Below are positions 35,904 to 50,603 of a DNA stretch of 64,000 nt, in pieces (the first letter of the stretch is position 1; each line of letters starts with the position of its first letter). The position numbers were made by a program, and so were the translations under genes. The stretch covers positions 1 through 64,000 of the forward strand of contig VHCJ01000010.1 in the NCBI GenBank assembly GCA_016871755.1, in the 5' to 3' direction. Source of the DNA: Verrucomicrobiota bacterium. Its GTDB lineage: Bacteria; Verrucomicrobiota; Verrucomicrobiia; Opitutales; Opitutaceae. The notes under the pieces were generated by a model that did no database searches, was not told where the DNA came from, and saw nothing but the letters and a program-made list of their open reading frames with translations.

Positions 35904-36950
35904 ATGAACCTACGCACCCATCTCCTCGCCGGCCACGTCATTCCGGCGCACCCCCTCGCGCTCGACCGCAATCGTCGCTTCTCGGAACGCCACCAGCGTG
36001 CCCTCACACGCTACTATCTGGATGCCGGCGCGGGCGGCCTGGCAGTCGGCGTGCATTCGACGCAGTTCGAGATCCGCGATCCGGCCCATGGCCTCTACCG
36101 TCCGGTCCTTGAATTGGCGGCGCACACCCAGCGTGAACATCAGGCCGCCGGCGGGCGCGCGGTGGCGATGATCGCCGGCATCTGCGGCAAGACGGGTCAG
36201 GCCCGGGCCGAGGCCGAACTCGCCCGCAGCCTCGGCTACCACGCCGGCCTCGTCAGCATGGCCGCATTCCGCGAGGAGCCCGAGTCAGTGATCCTCGATC
36301 ACATCGCGACCCTTTCGCGGATCATTCCCGTGGTCGGCTTCTACCTTCAGCCCGCAGTCGGCGGACGCGTGCTGAGCCACGACTTCTGGCGACGCTTCGT
36401 TGACATCCCGGACATCGTCGCGATCAAGATCGCGCCCTTCAACCGCTACCAGACGATCGACGTGGTGCGGGCCCTCGCGCTCTCCGGGCGGGAGGACATC
36501 GCGCTCTACACCGGGAACGACGACACGATCGTGGCCGACCTGCTGACGCCCTTCACCTTCGCCACGCCGGCCGGTCTGCGGACCTGCCGGATCGTTGGGG
36601 GCCTCCTCGGGCACTGGGGCGTTTGGACCCACGCCGCCGTCCGGCTCCTGACGGAGATTCAGGGGGTGAATCGCGGCTCGACGCTCGCCGCGCAGTGGCT
36701 CGACCGCGCGGTGGCGGTCACGGACATGAACGCGGCGCTCTTTGACGCCGCGAACCGGTTCCACGGCTGTATTCCGGGAATTCTGGAAGTGCTGAGACGG
36801 CAGGGACTGGTGGAGTCAATTCTCTGCCTGAATCCGACGGAGACGCTTTCGCCGGGGCAGGCCGAGGAGTTGACGCGGGTGTCGCGGGACTACCCGGAAT
36901 GGATCGACGACCGCTTTGTGGCGACCCATCGTGACCGCTGGCTGAACTGA
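35904..36950 (+). CDS. DapA/N-acetylneuraminate lyase-family aldolase
   Basis: The 348-residue product is a TIM barrel of the dihydrodipicolinate synthase family. It has GAGGLAVGVHST, GFYLQPAVGGR with Tyr147 and DIVAIKIAPFNRY with Lys175 as the Schiff-base Lys, then LYTGNDD. The family makes or splits 2-keto acids, including 2-keto-3-deoxy sugar acids, yielding pyruvate. It is longer than usual (about 300) through a C-terminal extension. Position between an epimerase-like gene and an M20 hydrolase fits a catabolic module. Confidence 0.85.
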   Translation: MNLRTHLLAGHVIPAHPLALDRNRRFSERHQRALTRYYLDAGAGGLAVGVHSTQFEIRDPAHGLYRPVLELAAHTQREHQAAGGRAVAMIAGICGKTGQARAEAELARSLGYHAGLVSMAAFREEPESVILDHIATLSRIIPVVGFYLQPAVGGRVLSHDFWRRFVDIPDIVAIKIAPFNRYQTIDVVRALALSGREDIALYTGNDDTIVADLLTPFTFATPAGLRTCRIVGGLLGHWGVWTHAAVRLLTEIQGVNRGSTLAAQWLDRAVAVTDMNAALFDAANRFHGCIPGILEVLRRQGLVESILCLNPTETLSPGQAEELTRVSRDYPEWIDDRFVATHRDRWLN

Positions 36951-36962
36951 GTCACACCCCCG

Positions 36963-38114
36963 ATGTCCATGCCCACCTTGCCTCAAACCGGCGAGCAGCT
37001 GCTCGCCCAGATGGTTGCGATCGACAGCGTCAACCCGCGCTACGGCGGTCCGGTCGGCGGGGAGGCCGATCTGGCCGCACACCTTGAGACGTTGGCGCAG
37101 GCTTGGGGCCTGCGGACCCGGCGGTGTCCGGTCGGGACCGACGGAAGCTTCAACCTGATTGTGGCGGCGCCGGAGATGGCGGGCGCGGAGTGGCTGATCT
37201 TTGAAAGCCACCTCGATACGGTCAGTTACGCCGGGATGGTGGTGCCGCCGCTGACCCTGACGGAGACGGATGGACGGCTCTTCGGTCGCGGCGCGTGCGA
37301 TACGAAGGCTTCTGGGGCGGCGATGCTCTGGGCGCTGCAGGCGTGGGCGGCCACGCCGGGCCGTTGCCGCAACGCGGCGATCGCCTTCGTGGTGGACGAA
37401 GAGGCTGGCATGACCGGGGCGCAGGCGTTCGCACGGGACGACCTCGCTCGGTATGCGCCCCTGCGTGGCGTGATCGTCGGCGAACCGACCCGGCTGCGGC
37501 CGGTGGTCTCCCATAACGGAGCCTTTCGTTGGCGCAGCGTCACGCGCGGCGTGGCGGCGCATTCGGCAGACCCGACGAAGGGACGCTCGGCAATCCGGGC
37601 CATGATGGCGGTGGTTGCGGCGCTGGAAGAGCGGATGATTCCGCTCGCGAACCGGGAGTCGCCCTTCACCGGACGTGCGGCCGCGAGCATCAACGTCATC
37701 CGCGGCGGATCCGCCCAAAACATCATCCCGGACCGATGCGAAATCCTCTGCGACCGCCGCTTGGTCCCGGGTGAGACCCTTGAACAGGTCATAACCGAGC
37801 GCGAGCGGGCGCTCGAGGGATTGGACGTCGAGCATGACGACGAGTACCTGGCCCCGCCGTTGCCGCCCGAGAACTCGGCAGCGCTGCACCGCTGGATGAC
37901 CTCGGCGCTGACCGGACAGGGACTCGACGCCACGGCCGTCGGCGCGCCGTACGCCACCGATGCCAGCCACTACGCGGCTGCGGGGGCCCAGGTCGTGGTC
38001 ATTGGCCCGGGCGACCTCGCGCAAGCGCACTGCAAGGACGAATGGCTGGAACGCGACCAGTTCGTGCGAGCCATCGCGCTCTACCGCGCGATGCTCGATT
38101 TGCCCGCTTCCTGA
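36963..38114 (+). CDS. M20-family metal-dependent deacylase/peptidase (ArgE/DapE-like)
   Basis: The 383-residue product has the dinuclear-zinc motifs of M20: FESHLDTV, GRGACDTKAS, VVDEEAG and GEPTRL, a dimerisation domain (RGVAAHSADPTKGRSAI) and a C-terminal QAHCKDEW. Members remove acyl groups from amino acids (ArgE, DapE) or cleave dipeptides. It follows the DapA-like gene by 12 bases and ends the 34.9-38.1 kb operon. In this context it may deacylate an N-acylated intermediate. No signal peptide. Confidence 0.87.
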   Translation: MSMPTLPQTGEQLLAQMVAIDSVNPRYGGPVGGEADLAAHLETLAQAWGLRTRRCPVGTDGSFNLIVAAPEMAGAEWLIFESHLDTVSYAGMVVPPLTLTETDGRLFGRGACDTKASGAAMLWALQAWAATPGRCRNAAIAFVVDEEAGMTGAQAFARDDLARYAPLRGVIVGEPTRLRPVVSHNGAFRWRSVTRGVAAHSADPTKGRSAIRAMMAVVAALEERMIPLANRESPFTGRAAASINVIRGGSAQNIIPDRCEILCDRRLVPGETLEQVITERERALEGLDVEHDDEYLAPPLPPENSAALHRWMTSALTGQGLDATAVGAPYATDASHYAAAGAQVVVIGPGDLAQAHCKDEWLERDQFVRAIALYRAMLDLPAS

Positions 38115-38158
38115 CGCATTCGAATGGCATTGGCATACGTTGGGGGCTGGCGGGTGCG

Positions 38159-38188
38159 TTGACAGGCGGATTCGGCCCCCGCTACCGT
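38159..38188 (+). promoter_or_regulatory. Possible accA promoter
   Basis: TTGACA (38159-38164) is followed after 18 bases by TACCGT (38183-38188), a weak -10 box. The accA ATG is only 7 bases further, so the transcript would have little or no leader. Confidence 0.3.
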
Positions 38189-38194
38189 GATCCG

Positions 38195-39175
38195 ATGGAT
38201 AAGCCGACGTACACGCTGGAGTTTGAGAAGCCCCTGCGGGAACTCAGCGCCCAGTTGGACCAACTCAAGCAGCAGTCCCTTGAGAGCAACGTCGATGTCA
38301 CGTCGGAAGTGGCGGCGATTGAGCGCAAGATCGCGGCGACGCAGCGGGAGATCTACTCCAACCTAACCCCTTGGCAGCGGGTGCAGATCGCGCGGCATCC
38401 GAAACGTCCGTACGCCTTGGATTACGTGGCGGAAATCTGCGAGGACTTCCGCGAGATGCACGGTGACCGGCAGTTCAACGATGATCGCGCCTTGGTGGGA
38501 GGAACCGCCTTCTTCCAAGGAAAGGCGGTCATGATCATCGCCCAGCACAAGGGCCGTGACACAAAGGAGAAGGTGGCGCGCAACTTCGGCATGCCCCAGC
38601 CGGAGGGGTACCGGAAGGCGTTGCGACTGATGAAGACGGCGGAGAAGTTCGGTCTGCCGGTCCTGACGTTCATCGACACGCCGGGAGCCTACCCCGGGCT
38701 GAGCTCCGAGGAGCGCCACGTCTCGGAGGCGATTGCCGTGAATCTGCGGGAGATGGCGCTGCTGCGCGTCCCCTCGATCGCGGTGGCGGTGGGGGAAGGC
38801 GGATCCGGCGGTGCGCTCGGGATTGGGGTGACGGACCGCGTGCTCATTTTCGAGAACAGCTATTACTCGGTGATCTCGCCGGAGGGCTGTGCGGCGATTC
38901 TGTGGAAGGATGCGGCGGCGGCACCCAAGGCGGCGGAGGCGATGAAGATCACCGCCCAGCATCTGGAGAAATTCGGGATCGTCGACGAAGTGATCGAGGA
39001 ACCCTTCGGCGGCGCGCATCACGACCCCAAGCAGGCGGCGGCCGCCCTCGGCTACACGCTCCAAAAACACCTCAACGACCTGCGGGCGATCAAGCCAGAC
39101 AAGCTCGTTGATCTACGCTACGAGCGCCTCCGCCACCTCGGCGTTTACCAAGAGGCGGGGCAAATTCGCTCCTAG
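38195..39175 (+). CDS. accA: Acetyl-CoA carboxylase carboxyltransferase subunit alpha
   Basis: The 326-residue product has the usual N-terminal coiled region (LEFEKPLRELSAQLDQLK), then WQRVQIARHPKRPY, GDRAFNDD-like HGDRQFNDDRALVGG, FGMPQPEGYRKALRLM, FIDTPGAYPG and EGGSGGALGIGV, as in AccA. With AccD it transfers carboxyl from carboxybiotin to acetyl-CoA in the first step of fatty acid synthesis, in the cytoplasm. The ATG at 38195 is chosen because the upstream extension overlaps the M20 gene. No accD is present nearby. Confidence 0.97.
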   Translation: MDKPTYTLEFEKPLRELSAQLDQLKQQSLESNVDVTSEVAAIERKIAATQREIYSNLTPWQRVQIARHPKRPYALDYVAEICEDFREMHGDRQFNDDRALVGGTAFFQGKAVMIIAQHKGRDTKEKVARNFGMPQPEGYRKALRLMKTAEKFGLPVLTFIDTPGAYPGLSSEERHVSEAIAVNLREMALLRVPSIAVAVGEGGSGGALGIGVTDRVLIFENSYYSVISPEGCAAILWKDAAAAPKAAEAMKITAQHLEKFGIVDEVIEEPFGGAHHDPKQAAAALGYTLQKHLNDLRAIKPDKLVDLRYERLRHLGVYQEAGQIRS

Positions 39176-39195
39176 GCGGCCCACGGCGGTCCGCC

Positions 39196-40389
39196 TTAGG
39201 GTCCGTGCACGCTGGCGGAGGACACCTGAACGCCGGCGGCGCTGATGGCCGTCGACCGACCGGTCTCCGTGTCGAGGATGAACAGACGCCGCGCATTCGG
39301 GGACCGCTGCGTGTAAACGAGGTGGCGCCCATCCGCGAGCCAGACCGGCTCGATGGCGTCGCTCGGAGCCTTGGACACCACGCGAGTCGGCGTACGACCG
39401 CTGGGGTCGTGCACCGCAACCTGGTAACCGCGCCCGACGCGGACGGTGAAGGCGATCAGGTCGGGATTGCCGCGGCTCCAGTCCGGCTCCGCACAGTAGC
39501 CGCTGATGTTGGTGGCGAGGCGACGCGACTGTCCGCCCGCGGCGGGCATGATGTAGAGTTGCGGTCCGCCCGCCGCGTCTGACGTGTAGACTAACTGAGC
39601 CCCGTCCGGCGAGAAGCACGGCGAAGCCTCCACCGCAGCCGTCCGCGTGCGCCGGGCCACCTGGCGGCCCTGCGCGTTGCTCACGTAAATCTCGGGATTG
39701 CCCTCACCGCTCAACACCATCGCCACCTGCTGCCCATTGGGACTGTACCGCGCACTGCTGTTCGTGCCGCGAAAGGTAACGAAGGACGTCCGCTGCAGGC
39801 TGCTGAGATCGATCTGATAGATGTCAGGGAATCCGTTTTTGAAGTAACTCGTGTAGAGCAGTTTACGCCCATCAGGCGACCACCGCGGTTTCAGGGCCTG
39901 GGAGTTGTCCCGGGTAATCTGGCGCACGTCGCCGAAGAACAGGTCGCCGGTGTGCACCTCCATCTTGCCGCCGCGCTCGACGATGAACGCCAGCTTGCTC
40001 GCAAAGAAGCCCTTCAGACCGCTCACCCGTTCCACGGCAAAATCCGCGGCGCGGAAGAGGGCTTGGCGCTGGGAACTGCCGGAAAACGCCTGGGTCGCCA
40101 CGACCGTTCCCCCTTTGCGGATCTGCGCCTCCACCTGCCCGCCGGCGGCGGGGGCGAAGCGGATGTCGAAGGCACCGCCGCTCGAGACGCGACGGAATCG
40201 CCCATGCGCGTTGAAGGCCACACTCGCGAGTTGATCGAGTTCCGGCGTCGCACCGGAGACCGTGACCGAAATGGTCTTTGCATCGATCTTGATCGAGACG
40301 TCGCCGAGGTCCCGAACTTGGGCGCGAAGCGCCAGTGCGGGCAGGGTCAGGGCGAGCAGCAGCAGGAAAAAACGCGACGAATTTTGCAT
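39196..40389 (-). CDS. TolB-like periplasmic beta-propeller protein
   Basis: The 397-residue product has a signal peptide (FFLLLLALTLPALALRAQ), an N-terminal domain (VSIKIDAKTISVTVSG) and a C-terminal propeller with TolB/PD40 repeats: PRWSPDGRKLLYTSY, ARYSPNGQQVAMVL, PCFSPDGAQLVYTSD and PVWLADGRHLVYTQR. TolB works with Pal and the Tol system in envelope integrity. No tolQRA or pal is in the window, so TolB identity is by architecture. The mrp gene is divergent, with a hairpin (GGACCA/TGGTCC) in the minus-strand leader at about 40406-40420. Confidence 0.8.
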   Translation of the reverse strand: MQNSSRFFLLLLALTLPALALRAQVRDLGDVSIKIDAKTISVTVSGATPELDQLASVAFNAHGRFRRVSSGGAFDIRFAPAAGGQVEAQIRKGGTVVATQAFSGSSQRQALFRAADFAVERVSGLKGFFASKLAFIVERGGKMEVHTGDLFFGDVRQITRDNSQALKPRWSPDGRKLLYTSYFKNGFPDIYQIDLSSLQRTSFVTFRGTNSSARYSPNGQQVAMVLSGEGNPEIYVSNAQGRQVARRTRTAAVEASPCFSPDGAQLVYTSDAAGGPQLYIMPAAGGQSRRLATNISGYCAEPDWSRGNPDLIAFTVRVGRGYQVAVHDPSGRTPTRVVSKAPSDAIEPVWLADGRHLVYTQRSPNARRLFILDTETGRSTAISAAGVQVSSASVHGP

Positions 40390-40490
40390 GGAGCGAGTTC
40401 TTGGACCACTCTGGTCCGACGGGCATTTCTATTTACAGCCGAAGCGCCGTTAACAACGTCAAAACCTTCCGACTAGACATTTCCCCTACC

Positions 40491-41588
40491 GTGTCACCCG
40501 AAGCCATCAAGGAACATCTCAAGCAGGTCAAGTACCCGGGATTCAGCCGGGACATTGTGTCCTTCGGCCTCGTGCGGTCCGCGGCCTGGATCGACGGTAC
40601 GATCAAGGTGAGCCTGCTGCTGACCACGCACGATCCGAAGACACCGCTGACGGTGAAGTCGGAGGTGGAGAAGTGCCTCCGGGCAATCCCGGGAGTGAAG
40701 GACATCATCCTCGACGTGGCGGTCCAACCGGTCCGTTCCCCCAGCACGCCCGCTCCGGGCGCCAACCAAGCGGGCACGGCTGCGGCACCGCGCAGCATCC
40801 GTCACTCGATTGCCATCGGTTCCGGCAAGGGCGGCGTGGGCAAGAGCACCTTTGCGGTCAATCTCGCCTGCGCCCTGGCCCAGGTCCTGACCGCGCAGGG
40901 TCGTCCGGGACGGGTCGGACTCATGGACTGCGACATCTACGGACCGAGCGTCCCCCTCATGATGGGTCTGCAAGGGCGACCGGAACTCGATGGTGAGGCC
41001 CTGGTGCCCTTGGAGGCCCACGGGGTGAAGGTCATGAGTATGGGGTTCCTCGTGGACGACAATACACCGGTGGTCTGGCGCGGACCCATGATCATGAAGA
41101 CCATTCAACAGTTCGTGCAGAACGTCCGGTGGGGCGAGTTGGACGTGCTGCTGATCGACCTCCCGCCGGGGACCGGGGACGCCCAGCTCTCGTTGGTCCA
41201 GACCCTGCCGCTCGACGGCGCGGTGATCGTGACCACCCCTCAGCCCGCCTCGACCCACGTGGCGCGGAAGGGCGGTCTAATGTTCCAGAAGGTCAACGTG
41301 CCGCTACTCGGTGTGGCTGAGAACATGAGTTGGTTCGAGGACTCTTCCGGCACCCGTCAGGCCTTGTTCGGGGCCGGGGGAGGCGCCAAGACGGCGGACT
41401 CGCTCGGAACCACCCTGCTGGGTCAGGTACCGCTGGTATCGGATATCCGCGCCGGCGGCGACGCCGGGAAGCCCTTGGTGGTCAGCCAGCCGTCGGCGCC
41501 GGCCAGCATCACTTTCCGCGAGATCGCCGAAGATCTCCTCAATCGGGTCGCCCGCAAGGCCGCGGCGCAGCTGCCGGCGACGAATTGA
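40491..41588 (+). CDS. Mrp/NBP35-family Fe-S cluster carrier ATPase
   Basis: The 365-residue product has an N-terminal MIP18-like domain (about residues 1-80) and a ParA-type ATPase domain with the P-loop GSGKGGVGKST, GLMDCDIYGPSVP and DLPPGTGDAQLSL. This is the ApbC/Mrp scaffold that carries iron-sulfur clusters. The CxxC near the C-terminus of classical Mrp is not visible (FEDSSGTRQALFGAGGG), so cluster binding may be weaker. No ATG fits; GTG at 40491 (MSPEAIKEHLK) gives the full N-terminal domain, while the longer frame starts over the divergent TolB gene. Confidence 0.88.
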   Translation: MSPEAIKEHLKQVKYPGFSRDIVSFGLVRSAAWIDGTIKVSLLLTTHDPKTPLTVKSEVEKCLRAIPGVKDIILDVAVQPVRSPSTPAPGANQAGTAAAPRSIRHSIAIGSGKGGVGKSTFAVNLACALAQVLTAQGRPGRVGLMDCDIYGPSVPLMMGLQGRPELDGEALVPLEAHGVKVMSMGFLVDDNTPVVWRGPMIMKTIQQFVQNVRWGELDVLLIDLPPGTGDAQLSLVQTLPLDGAVIVTTPQPASTHVARKGGLMFQKVNVPLLGVAENMSWFEDSSGTRQALFGAGGGAKTADSLGTTLLGQVPLVSDIRAGGDAGKPLVVSQPSAPASITFREIAEDLLNRVARKAAAQLPATN

Positions 41589-41753
41589 CAGTCGACCGCG
41601 GCCGAGGCATACACAGGGAGCCTGTCGCATGGTCCTCGTGCCCTCCTGCACCTTATTCCCCGCGTCTCATCGTCCCGGCTCTCCCGCCGGGGCCTTCGGA
41701 ACCGGACCCGTTCCGATGAGTGACGCGCTCCGGAGTGGAGGTGGAGCAAAGCC

Positions 41754-42023
41754 ATGAAGCCGGAGTCGCCTCAGCCCGAAGCGAGCGGCGGATTGGCCGA
41801 ATTTGCACGGCAGTCTTCGCTTTATCAGGAGTTTCTGGCCGAGCGGGAGGAAATCCTCCGTCACAAATGGCTGGAGTCCGAGCGCCTCGGCTACGACATC
41901 GGCTTCGAGCGAGCCCTGCTCGATTGGATTCGCCGCCATCGCGAGAAGTGGCGGGCGGCCCGCCGGGCGCAGGCGGCAGGAACGCCTCCCTCCTCGCCAA
42001 CCGCCACCCCACCGAGTTCCTAG
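41754..42023 (+). CDS. Small conserved-looking cytoplasmic protein
   Basis: The 89-residue product has a charged helical core, ILRHKWLESERLGYDIGFERALLDWIRRHREKWRAARR, here quoted only in parts: HKWLESERLGYDIGFERA then LLDWIRRHREKW. I recall similar short proteins in Verrucomicrobiota and Planctomycetota but do not know a function. The C-terminal tail is low-complexity Pro/Ser/Thr. The ATG at 41754 follows GGAGGTGGAG, a strong ribosome binding site, which supports a real gene. Confidence 0.65.
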   Translation: MKPESPQPEASGGLAEFARQSSLYQEFLAEREEILRHKWLESERLGYDIGFERALLDWIRRHREKWRAARRAQAAGTPPSSPTATPPSS

Positions 42024-42157
42024 CCAGCGTCGCTCAGCAACCGCCGCAGTCCAGATCCCCCCGAGTTGGATCGCCCCGGGGAGGGGATGATGTTCGATGG
42101 GCCGTCTCGGCCTCGGCCGACCGGACACTCGAGCGTCGAGGTCAGGATCGGGGCACG

Positions 42158-42185
42158 AAAAAAGGCCGAGCGAAGAAGCTCGGCC
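42158..42185 (-). terminator. Rho-independent terminator of rpmG
   Basis: On the minus strand GGCCGAGC pairs with GCTCGGCC around a short loop and is followed by TTTTTT. It lies 42 bases past the rpmG stop. Confidence 0.9.
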
Positions 42186-42226
42186 GTCGTTCGATCGAAA
42201 CCGGAGGGAACCCTCCGACTTTCGGT

Positions 42227-42391
42227 TTACTTGATTTCCTTGTGGACGGTGTGACGCTTGAGGAAGGGATTGTACTTCTTCTTCTCAATGCGCTCCGTCA
42301 CGGTCTTCTTGTTGCGCGTGGTGAGGTAACGCGACACCGGCTTGCCCTCTTTGCGGGCCTCAGTGCATTCCAGGGTGACGACTTCGTGCAT
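42227..42391 (-). CDS. rpmG: 50S ribosomal protein L33
   Basis: The minus strand encodes 54 residues starting [18 protein letters not shown] and ending [23 protein letters not shown] and [10 protein letters not shown] are diagnostic for bL33. The classical CxxC pairs are missing, so it is the zinc-free form. It stands alone with its own terminator. Confidence 0.95.
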
Positions 42392-42473
42392 GGTGGTGAA
42401 AAGGTTGAACCGAAGAGCAAAACCGCGCCGTCAACGGCCCGCAACCACAAAAGCACGGCGCGGCGGAACCGCT

Positions 42474-43829
42474 TCAGCCGGCGACCAAGGCCCGGTCGGT
42501 CAAGGAGAGCATCTCTCCGCGGCGGAAGAGTGTCACCTGTCCGGAACTGGAGGAAACCACGATCGAGATGCAGTCCGTCGCCACGCTGATCGCGGCCGCC
42601 GCGGCGTGCCGACTCCCCAACCCGCTGGGCAGGGTGTGCTCGACATCCGTCGCCTGGACCAGGCTGCCGGCCGACAGGAGCACGCCGTCACCCCGGATGA
42701 TGAACGCGCCATCAATCGACGAGAACTCCTTCACCGTCTCGTCCATGAACGGATTGAGGATGTTCCGATCCTCCTCCTTATAACCGTAGAAAGGATTGAG
42801 CACCAACGGCTTGATCAGGCGCTCAACCCGAGGCGTATCACCCACGACGAAGAGGCAGCCCACCGGGCGACCCTCCCGCCCCTCGACCGAAAGCTCAGTC
42901 GCGACTCCAATCACGCGCTCAAGGACCTCCGGTTTCACGTCGGCCGGCAGGAGGTCGGAATGACCGGTGAGCAAGGTCTGGAACTCACGCTCCACGTCCA
43001 CCACGACGACGGTGTCGAACTGGTTGCTTCCCGTGATTCCACCGATGCAGCAGATCCGATCCTGAAAGGAAATGACTCCTCGGGTGAGGGCGACCAGCAC
43101 GGCGCTGCGGAGTTGCGCGAGCCGACGGTTGGAGAACGAACGGACCTGAACCGTTTCAGCGAACTCGTTTTGGTCGTCGCCGGCGTCGATCACGTTGCGG
43201 GTCACGAGGATCGTCTTCAGCTTGGTTTGCAAGGACCGGGCCTCGATGCCCCCGACGAACGTATCACCAAAAACCATCAGGGCGCTGCAGCCCGCTCCCC
43301 GGGTGACCCGCTCGGCTTCGCGCAACATGAGCCGGTTGATGCGGTTCTGCTGGGCCTGGAGCGGACGGCCGGCGATGCCGCCGAAGCCCGCGAGAAGCCG
43401 CTCGTAGAGCACGTCGAGGTCGGCTGCGAGCAGGAGACCATCGATGAACTCCGGCTCCTTCAGCAGCCGCGCCAGCGAAGCGAGCACCTGCAGGTAGCTG
43501 CCGGCCTTCTCCCCGGCGAGCAGCATGACGATGAAGTGCACACGCTCGTCGCCCGCGACGCCATCGTGGCGGATGCCGACGCGACTCCGGCCGATTGCCA
43601 CGACGTAGGGCCGCGGCATGCGGACCCGTACATGCGGGAGCGAGACACCGCGCCCGAGGTAGGTCGTCATCGTGCTCTCCCGCTGCAGGAGACTCCGCAG
43701 CAACGCCTCCGGGCGGAGATCGGGGAATTTCTCGACCGAGACCGCGAGGAGTTCCTCCAAGGCCCCCTTGAGGTCCGTGCTCTTCAGCTCGACCAGGCGA
43801 CTGCGGGCAATGATTCGATCGAGTCTCAC
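42474..43829 (-). CDS. PTS EIIA (nitrogen-type)-linked diadenylate cyclase
   Basis: The 451-residue product has three parts. Residues about 1-150 are an EIIA-Ntr-like domain with the phospho-His motif GRGVSLPHVRV (His66). Residues about 160-300 resemble the C-terminal domain of pyruvate kinase as in archaeal CdaZ-type cyclases (SALMVFGDTFVGG, KTILVTRN). Residues about 330-451 are a DAC domain with the DGA motif (SIDGAFIIRG, Asp373) and the RH motif (GLGSRHAAAAAIS, Arg407-His408). The DAC domain makes cyclic di-AMP from two ATP. The fusion would put c-di-AMP synthesis under a PTS phosphorylation signal. It lies 61 bases after nuoA on the same strand. Domain boundaries are by eye. Confidence 0.82.
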   Translation of the reverse strand: MRLDRIIARSRLVELKSTDLKGALEELLAVSVEKFPDLRPEALLRSLLQRESTMTTYLGRGVSLPHVRVRMPRPYVVAIGRSRVGIRHDGVAGDERVHFIVMLLAGEKAGSYLQVLASLARLLKEPEFIDGLLLAADLDVLYERLLAGFGGIAGRPLQAQQNRINRLMLREAERVTRGAGCSALMVFGDTFVGGIEARSLQTKLKTILVTRNVIDAGDDQNEFAETVQVRSFSNRRLAQLRSAVLVALTRGVISFQDRICCIGGITGSNQFDTVVVVDVEREFQTLLTGHSDLLPADVKPEVLERVIGVATELSVEGREGRPVGCLFVVGDTPRVERLIKPLVLNPFYGYKEEDRNILNPFMDETVKEFSSIDGAFIIRGDGVLLSAGSLVQATDVEHTLPSGLGSRHAAAAAISVATDCISIVVSSSSGQVTLFRRGEMLSLTDRALVAG

Positions 43830-43890
43830 CGGGGCAACTCAGTCGAGGAGGGCGGCAGGAACCGGGCGGAGGTCCATGCCGGGGCGCTGT

Positions 43891-44280
43891 TCACTTCTCC
43901 CACTCCAGCGCGCCCTTCTTGACCTCGTACACGAGGCCCAGCACGAGCACGAAGAGGAAGAAACCGATGGGGGCGAGGATCGGAATCCCGGCCGCGAGGA
44001 ATTCCCGGTAGACGAACGTCCACGGAATCAGGAAGACCACCTCGATGTCGAAGAGGATGAAGAGCATCGCGGTGACGTAGAACTTCACCGAGAAGCGGGT
44101 ATGCGCGATGCCCTCGGGCTTCACGCCGCACTCGTAGGCGCTGTCCTTGATTGCTCCGCCACGGGCGCGCTGACCCAGCAGGTGGCTCACCGCGATGATC
44201 CCCGCCGCCAGCGCCGCAGCGAGCAGCGCCTGGATCAGCACCGGAAGGTAATCGGAAGACGAGTTCAGGACAGCCAGCAT
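43891..44280 (-). CDS. nuoA: NADH-quinone oxidoreductase subunit A (isolated gene)
   Basis: The 129-residue product has three hydrophobic segments and the NuoA signatures YECGVKPEG, RFSVKFYVTAMLFILFDIEVVFL and GLVYEVKKGALEWE. It is a membrane subunit of complex I. The usual nuoBCD genes do not follow; a diadenylate cyclase gene does. The gene is therefore outside a nuo operon. The ATG at 44280 gives a standard length. Confidence 0.93.
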   Translation of the reverse strand: MLAVLNSSSDYLPVLIQALLAAALAAGIIAVSHLLGQRARGGAIKDSAYECGVKPEGIAHTRFSVKFYVTAMLFILFDIEVVFLIPWTFVYREFLAAGIPILAPIGFFLFVLVLGLVYEVKKGALEWEK

Positions 44281-44333
44281 GGGGGGGAAAATCGCGGCGA
44301 TCGCCGGGTGGTGCAAGGGGTTTTTTCCTCCGC

Positions 44334-45431
44334 TCAGGGAGAGCCGTCGTTCAGCCGCACGAGGCGCGTGTCCAGCGACCGCGCCGTCCCAACCGCCAGC
44401 GTCTCGGCGAATTCGAGGGTGCGGATTTCGTCGGCCACCGGCTGGAAACCCGTCCGCTTCCGCCACTGATTGATCTTCCGCAGCGCGAGGGTGTCCATCG
44501 CGACCGGGTCCGCGCTCAGCCAGAGACGGGGCTCCGAGACCGTGTACAGCGAATTGAAGAAGGGCCCGCCGATGAATTGGTAACGCTCGAGCGTGGCGAT
44601 CGTGAAGGCCCACGTCGCGCGGAGCTCCGGGATCGCGCTCATCTCCGCCACCGCCGCCGGGGCATTGGCGGGCGAGCGGAAGAAACGCGACGTGTTGGAG
44701 GCGTTCCACAGGGTCGCGTTCACCAGCGCCCCGTTCACACCGAGGATTGGGTGGTCCGTGTAGACCGGGAGATTGATCCAGAAGTCGGCGTCGAGGAAAA
44801 GCGGCGTGGCGAGGAAGCTCTTGCGGTCCTGTTCCAGCGTCGAGTCGCCCGGAACCCCCTCGATCTGCTTGTCGGCCAGGATCGGATCGAAGCGCGTGGG
44901 CAGCGGACTGTCGTAAAACCAGGCCGGATCAAAGAACCGGCCCGACTCCAGCACGAACACCGGGTGGCCATCGTAGGCCGACTTACCGGTCACGAGAGAG
45001 GGAAGGAAACCGGTGATCCGCAGGCGCAGTTGGTTCAGACCAACCAGAAAGATGTCAGCCGTGGCGAAGCCGCGGCGCTCCAGTGCCGCAATGACGGAAT
45101 GGACCAAGGCATGCGGAGTGGAGAGTCCGGCTCCGGAATCGGCGTAAACCTTCAGCCCGACCTTGCGCTTCACCCCGGGTCGAAGCGGGCGACCCGTGGA
45201 CGCTTCGAACTGCACGATCAGGCGCTCCACCTCGCGTTCATAAATCGGCTGGTCGAAATTCTGCAGGCTCGTCTCCCAAACCGGGAGGAGCGGCGCCGGC
45301 GGCGGCGGCAACCCCGAGCCCGGACGACCACCGGCCTCCTGAGCATCCACCCGCAAGGCGGCCAGCGCCCAGGCGAGGAAAAAAGTCCACCAGCCCCGGC
45401 GGGTCGGAAAAAAGGAGGAAAGGACGGACAT
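44334..45431 (-). CDS. DUF362-like exported protein
   Basis: The 365-residue product has a signal segment (RRGWWTFFLAWALAALRVDA) and a body with VGLKVYADSGAGLSTPHALVHSVIAALERRGF and FWINLPVYTDHPILGVNGALVNAT, reported here as short landmarks: GLKVYADSGAGLSTP, FWINLPVYTDHPILGVNG, LWLSADPVAMDTLAL. These recall DUF362 proteins. The ferredoxin-like cysteines of some DUF362 members are absent. It has no clear link to nuoA beyond strand and a 53-base gap. Function unknown. Confidence 0.65.
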   Translation of the reverse strand: MSVLSSFFPTRRGWWTFFLAWALAALRVDAQEAGGRPGSGLPPPPAPLLPVWETSLQNFDQPIYEREVERLIVQFEASTGRPLRPGVKRKVGLKVYADSGAGLSTPHALVHSVIAALERRGFATADIFLVGLNQLRLRITGFLPSLVTGKSAYDGHPVFVLESGRFFDPAWFYDSPLPTRFDPILADKQIEGVPGDSTLEQDRKSFLATPLFLDADFWINLPVYTDHPILGVNGALVNATLWNASNTSRFFRSPANAPAAVAEMSAIPELRATWAFTIATLERYQFIGGPFFNSLYTVSEPRLWLSADPVAMDTLALRKINQWRKRTGFQPVADEIRTLEFAETLAVGTARSLDTRLVRLNDGSP

Positions 45432-45583
45432 GGAGAGTGAGTGGCCCCTGCCGGACGGAGGTTCCAACCGGACTCAGGCGGGTGTGACACTTGACACACC
45501 CCACGCCGCGCCGAAAGTCGATTTCTCAGGATTTTCTCCCGGCGCCGCCGATGCCCTGATCCGCCATCCCGGCTCCCTCCTCC

Positions 45584-47467
45584 ATGCCCGCCATCAAACC
45601 GACCTGCGTCCGCGACCTGAAGCTGCGGGTGAACCTGGTGGACGTGGTCTCGCGGGCCGTCGCCCTGCGCAAGGCCGGCTCCCGCTTCAAGGGGCTATGT
45701 CCCTTTCACGGAGAAAAGACGCCCTCCTTCTACGTCGATCCGGACAAGGGGTTCTACAAGTGTTTCGGCTGCGGTAAGGCCGGGGACGCGATTTCGTTCG
45801 TCCGCGAGACCGAGCAACTGTCGTTCACCGAGGCCGTGGAGACGCTCGGCAAGCGCTTCGGGGTCGTGATCGAGTACGAGGAAGGTGCCGGCCCCACTGC
45901 CGAGCAGCGTTCGCTGCGCCAGGAACTCTTCGACCTGCACGAGCAGGCGGCCGAGCACTTTTTCCAGGTGTTCCGCGGCCGGAGTGCGACGGCGGAGTTC
46001 ATGCGGAACTACTGGGTGCAGTCGCGCCGTTTCTCCGAGGCGATCGCCGACGAGTTCCGTATCGGGGCCGCCGAGCCTTCAGACAACAGCTTGGGCACCG
46101 CGCTCCTGCGCAAGCGTTTCTCGGAGGACGCCATCCGGCAATCCGGACTGTTCTTCGTGCGGGAGGGCGCACCCTTGACCATCGGTTCCCTCAAGCCACG
46201 TTTCCGGGGCCGATTGATGATCCCGATCCGGGATCACCAGGGCCGCGTCGTCGCCTTCACGGCCCGGCAGACCCAACTGACCCCGGATGACGATCCCGCG
46301 AAGGAGGCCAAGTACGTCAATTCCCCGGAAACCCCCATCTTCACCAAGGGCAACCTGCTGTTCAACCTCGACCGGGCGCGTGAACCGGCCGGAAAGGAAA
46401 ACCAGCCCTTTATTCTCGTGGAGGGCCAACTCGACGCGATCCGGTGCTGGAGCGTGGGCTTGAAGTCCGCCGTGGCGCCTCAGGGCACCTCGATCACCGA
46501 CGCGCAACTCGCCCTGCTCCGGCGTTACCAGACGCGGCTGGAGTGCCTCTTTGACGGCGACGCGGCCGGTCAGAAAGCGGCTCTCCGACTCATCCCACTG
46601 GCATTGCGGGCGGGCCTTGAAGTGCGGATTCTCGGCGCCCAAGAACCCAGCGGGAAGGTTGACCCGGATCTTCTCCTGTTGGAGCAGGGGACCCAAGGTT
46701 ACGAAGCGCTTCGTACCCGCGCACTCTCAGCGATCGGGTTTGCCTGCCGCTCGGTCCTCCCCGACGCGGAGCATGCCTCCCCGGAGGAAAAGACCCGCGC
46801 GGCCGAAGAGTTACAGCGCGTCATCAGCTCGGCCGAGTCAGAGGTGGCCCGCTCCCAGTTCCTCGCCGAAGCGGCCTCCCACCTGCGTCTGCCGCTGGCC
46901 GCACTCCAAAAGGACTTCCTTCGCACCGCTGAACGCCTGCGCGCCCAGGAAGGGGCCCGGGCGGCCGCCCGATCACCTGAACCCAAGGCTAGGTCCAACC
47001 CCTCCAAGGCACCCGATACGCGAAGCATCGCCCCCGAACAGGACCTCCTCCTCCTCCTCCTGCACTGGGAAACCTTCGGCAAGGCCCTCGCCGCCTCATT
47101 TCCTCACCAGTGGATCGATCTGAGCCACCCCGCCGGAGCCCTGCTGAACCGTTTTCTCGCGGAATTCGAACAGGACAACTGGCCAGGACGGGATCATCTC
47201 GATAGTCTCTTGGAGTCCGCCGACCAAAAAGCGTTGGTCGCCTCCCTCGCCTTCGATCCTCCCGAACTCGATGATCCAGCAAAAGCCCTGCAAGAGGGCC
47301 TGATGCGGCTTCGTTCGAGGGCGTTGGAGACGGAGTTGCGGAAAATCGACCTTGATTTAGCTAACTTACGTGCGGACAGTACGCTTGACGCAATTTCTCT
47401 CTTGAAACGCCGGTCTGAACTCCAGCGACAGTTGCGCACGCCCGTCGTGCTCGCATCCGTCGGATGA
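45584..47467 (+). CDS. dnaG: DNA primase
   Basis: The 627-residue product has the CHC2 zinc ribbon (CPFHGEKTPSF, then YKCFGCGKAGDA; Cys39, His42, Cys60, Cys63), the primase catalytic core and a TOPRIM domain (ILVEGQLDAIRCW, CLFDGDAAGQKAALR). The C-terminal helicase-binding part follows a Pro-rich linker. It makes RNA primers for replication. It sits 27 bases before rpoD, as in the macromolecular synthesis operon, but rpsU is missing. The frame starts at the ATG at 45584. Confidence 0.96.
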   Translation: MPAIKPTCVRDLKLRVNLVDVVSRAVALRKAGSRFKGLCPFHGEKTPSFYVDPDKGFYKCFGCGKAGDAISFVRETEQLSFTEAVETLGKRFGVVIEYEEGAGPTAEQRSLRQELFDLHEQAAEHFFQVFRGRSATAEFMRNYWVQSRRFSEAIADEFRIGAAEPSDNSLGTALLRKRFSEDAIRQSGLFFVREGAPLTIGSLKPRFRGRLMIPIRDHQGRVVAFTARQTQLTPDDDPAKEAKYVNSPETPIFTKGNLLFNLDRAREPAGKENQPFILVEGQLDAIRCWSVGLKSAVAPQGTSITDAQLALLRRYQTRLECLFDGDAAGQKAALRLIPLALRAGLEVRILGAQEPSGKVDPDLLLLEQGTQGYEALRTRALSAIGFACRSVLPDAEHASPEEKTRAAEELQRVISSAESEVARSQFLAEAASHLRLPLAALQKDFLRTAERLRAQEGARAAARSPEPKARSNPSKAPDTRSIAPEQDLLLLLLHWETFGKALAASFPHQWIDLSHPAGALLNRFLAEFEQDNWPGRDHLDSLLESADQKALVASLAFDPPELDDPAKALQEGLMRLRSRALETELRKIDLDLANLRADSTLDAISLLKRRSELQRQLRTPVVLASVG

Positions 47468-47494
47468 GTGAAGATCTTACCTTTCCCTTAATTC

Positions 47495-49291
47495 ATGGCC
47501 CGCAGCAGCAAAGCAAAGTCCGCCACCGTCGAAGAGCAGTCCGAAGCCGTGGAGGAGGTCCTCGCCAAGACGCCCGGCAACGGCCTTCCCGAGGGACCGG
47601 CGGGCGGCATCAACGAAAAGATCCGTCACCTGATCCGCCAGTCCAAGGAACAGGGATACCTGACCTTCGACGACATCAACGAGGCGCTGCCGGATTCCGT
47701 CGAGAATCAGGACGAGATCGATAACGTTCTGTCCATCCTCCAGAACCTCGACATCGAGATCATCGAGTCCGAGGAGGTCGAATCGTTCAAGCAGCGTCAG
47801 GAGGAGGCGGAGGAGGAGGAGACCCGTTCGTCGCAGAATGACATCCTCGACGATCCGGTCCGGATGTACCTCAAGCAGATGGGCCAGGTCCCGCTGCTGA
47901 CGCGCGAGCAGGAGGTCGAGATTTCGAAGCGCATCGAAGCGGCGGAGCTGAAGGCTCAGGACGTGCTGTTCGACGCATCGATCATCGCCCGGCACATCAT
48001 CTCGCTGGGAACCAAGCTCCTCAACCGCGAGGAGCGCTTCGATCGCATCGTCATCGACAAGAAGATCGAGAGCCGGGACGCCTACTTCAAGGGCCTGCCG
48101 CGGCTCGTGGAGCTCACGACCAAGGACGAGGGCTCCGTGGCGGAATCGTGGGAGGAACTGCTCGCTGCCCGCACTGAGGCGGACCGCAAACGCATTTCCC
48201 AGAAGCATCGGAAGCGTGAGACCGCGCTGAAGTCCCACCTCGCGAAGTTCTTTTTCAAGCTCAAGGTCTACGAGGAGTACCTGGAGGGAATCCGTCCGCT
48301 GCTGACGGAGATTCAGGAACTGCAGGGTCTTCTTGAGCGCGCCAAGCACCCGCGCACCAAGAAGGATGCCGCGATCGACACGAAGGTCATTCACGCCCGC
48401 TTCAAGGCGATCGAGGCCGGTCAACGCATCGCCCCCCAGTCCCTGCTGGATCTCGTGAATCGGGCCAACGTGCACGTGCGCGAAGCACACCAGGCCAAGA
48501 CGGAGATGGTCGAAGCCAACCTGCGCCTCGTCATCTCGATCGCGAAGAAGTACACGAACCGCGGACTCTCGTTCCTCGACCTGATTCAGGAAGGCAACAT
48601 GGGCCTGATGAAGGCGGTCGAGAAATTCGAGTACCGTCGCGGGTACAAGTTCTCCACCTACGCCACGTGGTGGATCCGGCAGGCCATCACCCGTTCCATC
48701 GCCGACCAAGCCCGCACCATCCGCATCCCGGTCCACATGATCGAGACGCTGAACAAGGTGATGCAGGTCCAGAAGCAACTCCTGCAGGAGTACGGTCACG
48801 AACCGACGCCCGACGAGGTGGCCGACGAGATGAATCTTCCCGTCGAGCGGGTGCAGCAGATCATGAAGATGGCGCAGCAGCCCATCTCGCTCCAGTCGCC
48901 CGTCGGTGACGGCGACGACACAAGCTTCGGTGATTTCATCGAGGACAAGAGCGCCGAGAATCCGTACGACATGACGGCGTTCTCCCTGCTGCGGGAAAAG
49001 ATCATCGACGTCCTCGATTCGCTCACCGAGCGCGAGCGCCGCGTGCTCTCGCTCCGCTTCGGACTGGTTGACGGTTACAGCCGTACGCTCGAGGAGGTCG
49101 GCAAGCAGTTCAAGGTCACGCGCGAGCGGATCCGCCAGATTGAGGCCAAGGCGCTCCGCAAGATGCGCCACCCGACGCGGCTCCGGCAGTTGACCGGCTT
49201 CTTCGACGCCGAGCAACCGGACAACGCCCAGAATCTGCTCAAGCAGGCTCAGGCCGGCCAGATCAAGCCGCCGCCTCCCCTGCCCCGCTGA
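47495..49291 (+). CDS. rpoD: RNA polymerase primary sigma factor (sigma-70)
   Basis: The 598-residue product has region 1.1 ([25 protein letters not shown]), split here as landmarks [17 protein letters not shown] and DDINEALP, region 1.2 ([19 protein letters not shown]), an acidic spacer, region 2 ([36 protein letters not shown]) and region 4 (RYGLVDG-like [34 protein letters not shown]). It directs housekeeping transcription. Pairing with dnaG supports the assignment. Confidence 0.96.
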
Positions 49292-49293
49292 TC

Positions 49294-49941
49294 GTGCACC
49301 CGGGACGCCGTGCCTCCCGCGCTCGACTCCTGTCGCAGGGGACTGCGTGGGGACTGATCGGACTGCTCGCGGCGAGCCTCCCGCTCCGCGCGAACCCCTC
49401 CGATCCACGCGCCCATCCGTCCCCTTTTCTCCCGCCGGCCGGTGACTCCGCGGCGGCCGCCACGCCGGCCGCAGCCAAGGATGCGCTTGAGTTCACGGGT
49501 GTCATCGTGACGGGCAAGACGGTGCTGCTCAACCTCACCGATCCGCAGGCGAAGAAGAGCTTCTGGATCGGGCTGGGCAAGGCGGAGGACGGGGTCGAGG
49601 CCGTTGACTACGACCGCCGTCAGGATGCCGCGACGGTCAAGGTGCGCGGCGAGACCCGACGCCTCGTGATGAAGCAACCCGTGGTGGCAGCCAGTTCGGG
49701 CAACACCGCTGCGACCGTCTCCATTTCCCCCGTCGTCCCCCTGCCGCCGCCGTCCACTCCGGCGGAGGCGGAGCGCGAGGCGCGGATGCTGGTCAGCGAT
49801 TTACTGGAAATCGGCATGCAGCAGCGCAAGGCCTACGAGGAAGCCCAGCGCAAGGCGGCCCTCGAGGCGGCCAAGACAAACGCAACGCCCGTCCCGCCCG
49901 CTGCAGGTCAGGCCGCCCCCGGCTTGGTTCCCCAGCCGTAG
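49294..49941 (+). CDS. Secreted hypothetical protein after rpoD
   Basis: The 215-residue product uses a GTG start 3 bases after the rpoD stop and has a signal peptide (TAWGLIGLLAASLPLRANP), an FTGVIVTGKTVLLNLTDP beta-strand region and a Pro/Ala-rich, helical C-terminal half (EAEREARMLVSDLLEIGMQQR). I do not recognise the family. The C-terminus overlaps the convergent methyltransferase gene by 34 bases. The tight spacing suggests co-transcription with rpoD. Confidence 0.6.
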   Translation: MHPGRRASRARLLSQGTAWGLIGLLAASLPLRANPSDPRAHPSPFLPPAGDSAAAATPAAAKDALEFTGVIVTGKTVLLNLTDPQAKKSFWIGLGKAEDGVEAVDYDRRQDAATVKVRGETRRLVMKQPVVAASSGNTAATVSISPVVPLPPPSTPAEAEREARMLVSDLLEIGMQQRKAYEEAQRKAALEAAKTNATPVPPAAGQAAPGLVPQP

Positions 49942-50603
49942 ACCCACATCGGCCGCGTGGCCACGTGCCAGTCCACAAATCCGGCGCGCCGCAGGAAGGT
50001 CTCAAACTCCGGCACGCTGGAGCACTTGGAAGACTGCGGGGGACGCTCCGCCGAAGGGAACCGCGTGCGCACGCTTTCAAACATCTCCCACCCTTCGTCG
50101 GAGGCGATGTTCGCGTTGTCGCAGTAGAAGCGCCCGCCGGGTTTCAGCACCCGAAACGCTTCAAGGCAGTAATTGTAGCGATCCCACTCGTCGAGGTGCA
50201 TGAACACGACGGTCGTGTAAACGACGTCGACAGAGTTGTCCGGCACCGGCTGGAGATCATAGCCCGAGACCTCGACGAAACGGACGTTGTCCAGGCCGAG
50301 GGTCTTGCGCCGCGCCTGACGGATCATCTCGCTGGAAACGTCACATCCGATCCACTCGCGGACGAACGGCGAGAGCCCGCGCCCGACGCGGCCCACGCCA
50401 CACCCGATTTCGAGGAAAACGTCATCCGGTCGGATCCCGACCGTCCGACGAAGAATCCCGAGGGTATCCTCCATCGTGGCGTGCAGTTGGTCCTCATCAT
50501 CGTAGCCGGAGACGTAGATCACCGCCCCCTCGGCGCCAAGGGCCAGATTCTGCCACGTCGTCTTGTAATGAGAGCGCACTGCCGGGGTCGACTCGGAGTT
50601 CAT
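49908..50603 (-). CDS. Class I SAM-dependent methyltransferase
   Basis: The 231-residue product has motif I FLEIGCGVGRVGRGL, the acidic residue at WIGCDVSSEM, VSGYDLQPVPDNSVDVVY and FRVLKPGGRFYCDN, the standard class I Rossmann methyltransferase pattern. The substrate is not deducible. It is convergent with the gene at 49294. Confidence 0.85.
   Translation of the reverse strand: MNSESTPAVRSHYKTTWQNLALGAEGAVIYVSGYDDEDQLHATMEDTLGILRRTVGIRPDDVFLEIGCGVGRVGRGLSPFVREWIGCDVSSEMIRQARRKTLGLDNVRFVEVSGYDLQPVPDNSVDVVYTTVVFMHLDEWDRYNYCLEAFRVLKPGGRFYCDNANIASDEGWEMFESVRTRFPSAERPPQSSKCSSVPEFETFLRRAGFVDWHVATRPMWVYGWGTKPGAA

Follow-up and report, generated by a model that had tools for sequence, protein, structure and literature searches.

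An EIIA-DacZ_P-DAC fusion conserved in Opitutales is a candidate link between the PTS and c-di-AMP

Main finding and proposed mechanism

The window, a stretch of 64,000 nucleotides from a Verrucomicrobiota bacterium of the Opitutaceae (order Opitutales), harbors a gene for a diadenylate cyclase (DAC) that carries a PTS EIIA domain and a DacZ_P domain ahead of its catalytic domain. EIIA-DacZ_P-DAC is a real and widely conserved fusion, and the domain facts are firm. The fusion is probably functional. Its sequence features, together with those of the genomes that encode it, suggest a PTS-regulated diadenylate cyclase, and we consider such a link from the PTS to c-di-AMP likely (probability of about 0.6). 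The domains, folds, catalytic motifs and conservation, as well as the presence of genes for EI, HPr, PgpH and an antiporter, are established by computation. To our knowledge, the signals that control diadenylate cyclases are poorly known. The chemistry of the candidate input is understood, from PEP through EI and HPr to a histidine, and control of this cyclase is thus open to direct test.

In the proposed mechanism, phosphoenolpyruvate would phosphorylate EI, from which the phosphoryl group would move to HPr and then to His66 in the EIIA domain of the cyclase. The phosphorylation state of EIIA may alter the assembly or the activity of the C-terminal DAC, with either sign. A ligand, presumably a metabolite, bound to a middle domain that resembles the C-terminal domain of pyruvate kinase may act jointly with the state of EIIA. 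The c-di-AMP made by the DAC would be removed by PgpH, and would probably act on cation/proton antiporters that bear TrkA_C domains.

Domain architecture and predicted folds

The cyclase gene (42474..43829, minus strand) encodes 451 aa from a GTG start. This start is supported because most relatives in an alignment of 31 rows (A2) share M-R-L-D/E at this point. Relatives at 39-98% identity match the protein over nearly its whole length, which rules out an artefact of assembly or frame and a chance ORF. The three-domain layout put forward in the initial annotation is borne out, with every domain above its Pfam cut-off. PTS_EIIA_2 (PF00359) covers residues 15-145 (43395..43787, minus strand; 59.5 bits against a gathering score of 27, E 4.6e-16), DacZ_P (PF21755) covers residues 162-285 (42975..43346, minus strand; 99.9 bits against a cut-off of 27.4, E 1e-28), and DAC (PF02457) covers residues 314-439 (42513..42890, minus strand; 72.1 bits against a gathering score of 27, E 3.7e-20). 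The motifs quoted for the three parts are also in place: GRGVSLPHVRV, which includes His66, VFGDTFVGG and ILVTRN, and IDGAF (D373-A375) and SRH (R407-H408). The same PF02457 search gave no match in the E. coli control genome.

The cyclase missed the NCBIfam equivalog cut-offs for haloarchaeal DacZ (NF041371, 121 bits against 430) and CdaA (TIGR00159, 32.6 bits against 188.8), and its EIIA part missed that for PtsN, or EIIA-Ntr (TIGR01419, 30.3 bits against 138.7). These misses place the cyclase in the broad families and outside the haloarchaeal DacZ, CdaA and PtsN subfamilies. Judged by its sequence, the cyclase belongs to the DacZ superfamily and carries an additional EIIA domain in front. 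A phage-defence cyclase was considered and rejected, with no PADLOC match at E <= 0.001. No RNA family reached its gathering score near the gene, within positions 36000-50000.

Structure prediction, a check proposed with the initial annotation, recovered EIIA, pyruvate-kinase C-terminal-like and DAC folds. The full-length AlphaFold2 model, built with 58 relatives, is only moderate (pLDDT 74.8, pTM 0.52), so the relative placement of its domains is not to be trusted. The EIIA part matches EIIA-Ntr (1a6j; Z 19.9, rmsd 2.2, 147 aligned), and the DAC part matches 2fb5 (Z 16.8, rmsd 2.5, 135 aligned), DisA 9y4s (Z 16.2, rmsd 2.5, 131 aligned) and CdaA-AMP 8c4n (Z 15.3, rmsd 2.8, 130 aligned). The middle domain, modelled alone (pLDDT 82.2, pTM 0.77), matches the C-terminal domain of pyruvate kinase 5wrp (Z 13.7, rmsd 2.8, 121 aligned), and 48 of 50 among the Foldseek matches listed were named pyruvate kinases. 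The middle part, called CdaZ-like in the initial annotation and proposed there for a PK_C search, has the predicted fold of PK_C, although its Pfam match is DacZ_P rather than PK_C. The VIA-align structure matches listed each cover a single domain and have no bearing on the novelty of the arrangement. Archaeal DacZ has the same predicted pyruvate-kinase C-terminal fold, which in pyruvate kinase binds fructose-1,6-bisphosphate, according to PMC6741144.

The catalytic residues were compared across 62 rows, the fragment from G002 having been dropped beforehand. Alignment, as had been proposed, found Asp-Gly and Arg-His retained throughout: D373-G374, in the DGA motif (D373-A375; 42705..42713, minus strand), and R407-H408 (42606..42611, minus strand) are present in 62/62 rows, and the complete DGA in 59/62. 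The residue that follows RH is Ala in this cyclase, RHA is found in 53/62 rows, and CdaA has RHR. An annotated archaeal DacZ has RHH, in which the third residue is likewise not Arg, so the absence of the third Arg need not mean lost activity. From these residues we infer that the cyclase of the fusion is active.

Distribution of the fusion

A profile search found a single DAC copy in the genome under study. Within a set of 57 genomes (this one and 56 relatives), DAC scored above its cut-off in 51, and 50 of these 51 DAC frames also contain an EIIA_2 match; the remaining frame, from G047, is truncated by the end of its contig. A wider draw from the phylum comprised 387 genomes, requested at >= 85% completeness. 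The full-length fusion is encoded by 59 of the 63 drawn genomes of the same order (it is absent from G054, G192, G342 and G422), by none of the drawn genomes from other orders of the same class, and by six of the remaining genomes of the phylum (G362, G421, G292, G205, G089 and G059). Only the later part of the protein was matched in G162, G389 and G290, the last of which begins at a contig end. The DAC frame is without EIIA in G162, in G389 and in a second copy in G217. This second cyclase of G217 (L205:3762-4637) accompanies the fusion in the same genome, and within the order no loss of EIIA was seen except in this extra copy.

Proteins from both samples were aligned, namely 50 of the 51 DACs of the relatives' set (truncated G047 was left out) plus another 13 taken from the draw across the phylum. 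This set of 63 proteins is distinct from the 63 genomes of the order counted above. Two further alignments, A3 and A4, cover 58 of 80 loci and 51 of the same 80, respectively. The 80 loci include L070 and L072, from named Cephaloticoccus strains, and L054, from isolate IMCC26134. A tree was built from the DacZ_P-DAC region with 49 rows: the 63 proteins less 18 removed beforehand (the G002 fragment and close relatives), plus four that lack EIIA or are truncated. In this tree, a split with support of 96/84 separates the three proteins that lack EIIA from the remaining 46. A single origin of the fusion is only suggested by this split, because the root is a midpoint root and the branches are long. 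A search of plasmids matched four records, two with archaeal dacZ and two with EIIA only. G053 and G054, both of the same order, have EI and HPr and gave no match to DAC or to a PgpH-type protein; c-di-AMP signalling has apparently been lost in both.

The predicted phosphorylation site

The predicted phospho-acceptor is His66 (codon 43632..43634, minus strand), within LPHVR. In PtsN structures, the aligned position falls in a PH motif (PHGR), which we take to be their active site. His66 is kept in 59/63 proteins, and every one of the 59 rows of A3 has it. Arg50, presumably an active-site neighbour in EIIA folds, is retained in 60/63. Where classical EIIA has its second His, 57/63 proteins have Tyr (Tyr112), and the free EIIA of the same genome also has Tyr in the matching stretch when aligned by eye. 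Given Tyr in place of this second His, the cyclase EIIA might be a terminal acceptor rather than a domain that passes the phosphoryl group on, which is only a suggestion.

Control of the cyclase by phosphorylation, also part of the initial annotation, can still be put only conditionally, the four proteins without His66 being a counter-example. His66 is replaced by Ser, Ser and Cys in G220, G195 and G348, which belong to one genus, and by Tyr in G039; EI and HPr are present in each of these genomes. G042 retains His66, with His at the position of Arg50, in a genome of 0.9 Mb (93% complete) that has no match to EI or HPr. The EIIA domain can thus persist without phosphorylation of His66 by HPr. 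Strict co-loss of His66 with EI and HPr was tested and not found. Faster decay of EIIA after loss of the His was also considered. In a divergence fit to 51 core rows (62 rows in all, with G002 and five test rows excluded from the fit), the four proteins without His66 have z values of -0.3 to -2.3 for EIIA, and the lowest intact core row has -3.1; any such effect is weak and within the spread of intact rows. In G042, EIIA (z -3.6) and DacZ_P (z -5.0) both diverge much more than the DAC part, as would be expected if the input to both sensor parts had relaxed.

PTS components and gene neighbourhood

The genome encodes one EI and one HPr, the components whose presence the initial annotation had proposed to check, and no EIIC (PF02378). 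EI (589 aa) has three PEP-utiliser domains as its only Pfam matches at E <= 0.001, and no GAF domain. HPr carries the GIHARPA site, and a free EIIA of 158 aa is also encoded. With EI and HPr and without EIIC, as judged by PF02378 only, this is a permease-less (regulatory) PTS. The EI of the nitrogen PTS has an N-terminal GAF domain. Assignment to the nitrogen PTS was too specific, given an EI without GAF and an EIIA part far below the PtsN cut-off; the nearest predicted fold of that part is nonetheless EIIA-Ntr.

EI was found in 53/57 genomes, HPr in 55/57, EIIC (PF02378) in 3/57 and EIIA-man in 0/57. On this gene content, the PTS of these genomes shows little sign of transport. The cyclase holds the only EIIA_2 match in 13/57 genomes, and 10 of these 13 have EI and HPr; all ten have His66 and none has EIIC. 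The cyclase is the only acceptor in these genomes in the sense of PTS_EIIA_2 and EIIA-man; glucose-type EIIA, PRD regulators and HPr kinase fall outside this count and could be other targets that EI and HPr serve. The presence of EI does not track that of DAC across the 57 genomes (Fisher p 0.37). The possible link between the PTS and c-di-AMP raised in the initial annotation gains from the order-wide fusion, the conserved phospho-His, the presence of EI and HPr, the scarcity of sugar-PTS permeases and the ten genomes in which the cyclase carries the sole PTS_EIIA_2 found.

The genes for EI, HPr, the free EIIA and the cyclase lie on four separate contigs. An operon with PTS genes was rejected for this genome, and PTS genes neighbour the fusion in two of the six distant genomes only. 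In one of these, G205, an EI gene (L199:5455-7440) adjoins the fusion on the opposite strand, with a zinc-ribbon-EIIA protein nearby. In the other, G292, an amino-acid permease with a C-terminal EIIA adjoins the fusion, also with a zinc-ribbon-EIIA protein nearby (EIIA proteins at L198:1713-3566 and L198:6258-7100). The stretches from the other four distant genomes (L196, L197, L200 and L201) hold no further EIIA match around the fusion. The loci of G205 and G292 are the best context evidence that the PTS and DAC work together, and they come from one genus only.

Upstream of the cyclase gene by about 60 bp is nuoA (43891..44280, minus strand; Pfam Oxidored_q4), and downstream is rpmG, for ribosomal protein L33 (42227..42391, minus strand; Pfam). 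Where enough flank was available, nuoA precedes the cyclase gene by <=250 bp, with the strand shared, in 77/77 (of 80 loci) and in 18/20 loci, and rpmG lies within 550 bp downstream in 51/77 and 10/17 loci. By position, nuoA is a conserved neighbour of the cyclase gene and rpmG a frequent one.

c-di-AMP turnover and targets

The genome encodes a PgpH-type phosphodiesterase with extracellular, 7TM and HD domains. The PgpH extracellular domain was found in 48/57 genomes, comprising 46/51 with DAC versus 2/6 without (Fisher p 0.004, relatedness ignored). For genomes at least 90% complete, the counts are 42/43 versus 1/3 (p 0.009, relatedness ignored).

A Na_H_Exchanger protein with two TrkA_C domains is encoded on a contig other than that of the cyclase. 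Of the 47 loci that extend 6.5 kb or more upstream of dac, 15 have a homologue of this TrkA_C antiporter on the strand of dac, at a distance of 5.6-6.5 kb. We take TrkA_C to be the domain known as RCK_C in CpaA. CpaA binds c-di-AMP through its RCK_C domain, and in Staphylococcus aureus its potassium export is activated when c-di-AMP is high, as described in PMC10243994. By analogy, the antiporter of the genome studied here is inferred to bind c-di-AMP. G039, whose DAC-fused EIIA has Tyr at position 66, also encodes a cation/proton antiporter (L228:3097-5217) that bears TrkA_N and, at its C terminus, a PTS_EIIA_2 domain.

Alternative explanations

The EIIA domain could instead be a docking or oligomerisation module that tethers the cyclase to partners such as HPr, antiporters or PTS-linked enzymes, with phosphorylation not serving as the signal. 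This explanation accommodates the four His-less proteins, which retain EIIA despite the presence of EI and HPr, as well as G042, which keeps the His without either. It also has a precedent in E. coli, where unphosphorylated PtsN inhibits the potassium/proton antiporter YcgO by binding it, according to PMC11808508. However, docking would not require conservation of His66 and its LPHxR surroundings, which is strong across the aligned proteins and complete in A3, and pure docking is therefore disfavoured; we regard it as unlikely. Less probable still is that sensing resides in the pyruvate-kinase-C-like middle domain, as is presumed for DacZ proteins elsewhere, and that the role of EIIA is minor or lineage-specific. 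EIIA is present in 50/50 uncut DAC frames of the 57 genomes and its loss within the order is confined to the extra copy in G217, which counts against this reading. Nevertheless, EIIA-less frames do occur in the same phylum (G389, G162 and the second copy in G217), the archaeal form lacks EIIA and has a different N-terminal model (DACZ_N), and a regulatory role has been proposed for the pyruvate-kinase-C fold in DacZ in PMC6741144.

It is also highly improbable that the protein is a PTS-linked scaffold whose cyclase lacks activity or yields a different product. The replacement by Ala of the third residue of the CdaA RHR triplet would fit such a protein, but the conservation of DG and RH in every row, the RHH of the annotated archaeal DacZ and the co-occurrence of a PgpH-type phosphodiesterase with DAC all argue for a working cyclase. 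Regulation of an active diadenylate cyclase by the PTS is the preferred explanation. If this link is true, c-di-AMP may signal the status of central carbon metabolism in Opitutales. The link could explain why the order retains EI and HPr alongside few sugar-PTS permeases, and it would unite two separate potassium-control systems, EIIA-type PTS proteins and c-di-AMP.

A broader proposal is that the PTS of Opitutales is a relay with the cyclase as its main, and sometimes only, terminal acceptor, an idea that we put forward tentatively and consider somewhat doubtful. The PEP-pyruvate node would be read twice, by EIIA phosphorylation, which would report PEP supply, and by the pyruvate-kinase-like allosteric domain, which would respond to a glycolytic or other metabolite. 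The c-di-AMP output would set cation/proton antiport and turgor. Were the relay real, c-di-AMP would be a carbon-energy signal in Opitutales, and a cyclic dinucleotide cyclase would take direct input from PTS phosphorylation.

Comparison with known systems

The initial annotation knew of no characterised member with this layout, and no characterised EIIA-DAC protein is named among the literature matches listed, a scope outside which the DAC architecture survey Galperin 2023 falls. That survey, "All DACs in a row", reportedly treats DacZ-related domains and 22 DAC families. The EIIA-DacZ_P-DAC layout may already be catalogued there. In a term search of the main text of a 2026 review of the nitrogen PTS, neither c-di-AMP nor Verrucomicrob- occurs.

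The closest parallels to the later part of the fusion are archaeal. DacZ of Haloferax volcanii likewise combines a C-terminal DAC with an N-terminal predicted pyruvate-kinase C-terminal fold, as reported in PMC6741144. An annotated DacZ of Haladaptatus is 34% identical to residues 259-441 of the cyclase; it has DACZ_N where the cyclase has DacZ_P, and it has no EIIA domain. In CdaZ/DacY of Methanocaldococcus jannaschii, which was compared by description only, a PK_C-type domain precedes DAC as in the cyclase, and the passages of PMC6741144 that describe it mention no EIIA. CdaA (DacA) shares the catalytic DAC domain, with fold matches of Z 13.6-15.3 among the matches listed, but differs in its N-terminal part and in the equivalog cut-off that the cyclase missed. 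PtsN shares the fold and PH motif of the cyclase EIIA, whereas here the domain is fused to a cyclase, has Tyr112 in place of the second His and misses the PtsN equivalog cut-off.

PTS phosphorylation likewise sets a nucleotide second messenger in Caulobacter, where phosphorylation of PTS-Ntr raises (p)ppGpp; EIIA-Ntr in its phosphorylated form interacts with SpoT, whose hydrolase activity it inhibits, according to PMC4848567. The Caulobacter PTS-Ntr thus works in trans, affecting the turnover of (p)ppGpp by way of SpoT, whereas the EIIA of the fusion would act on the synthesis of c-di-AMP as part of the cyclase itself. DacA of Streptococcus mutans has the PTS protein FruI among its interactors, as given in PMC13289029.
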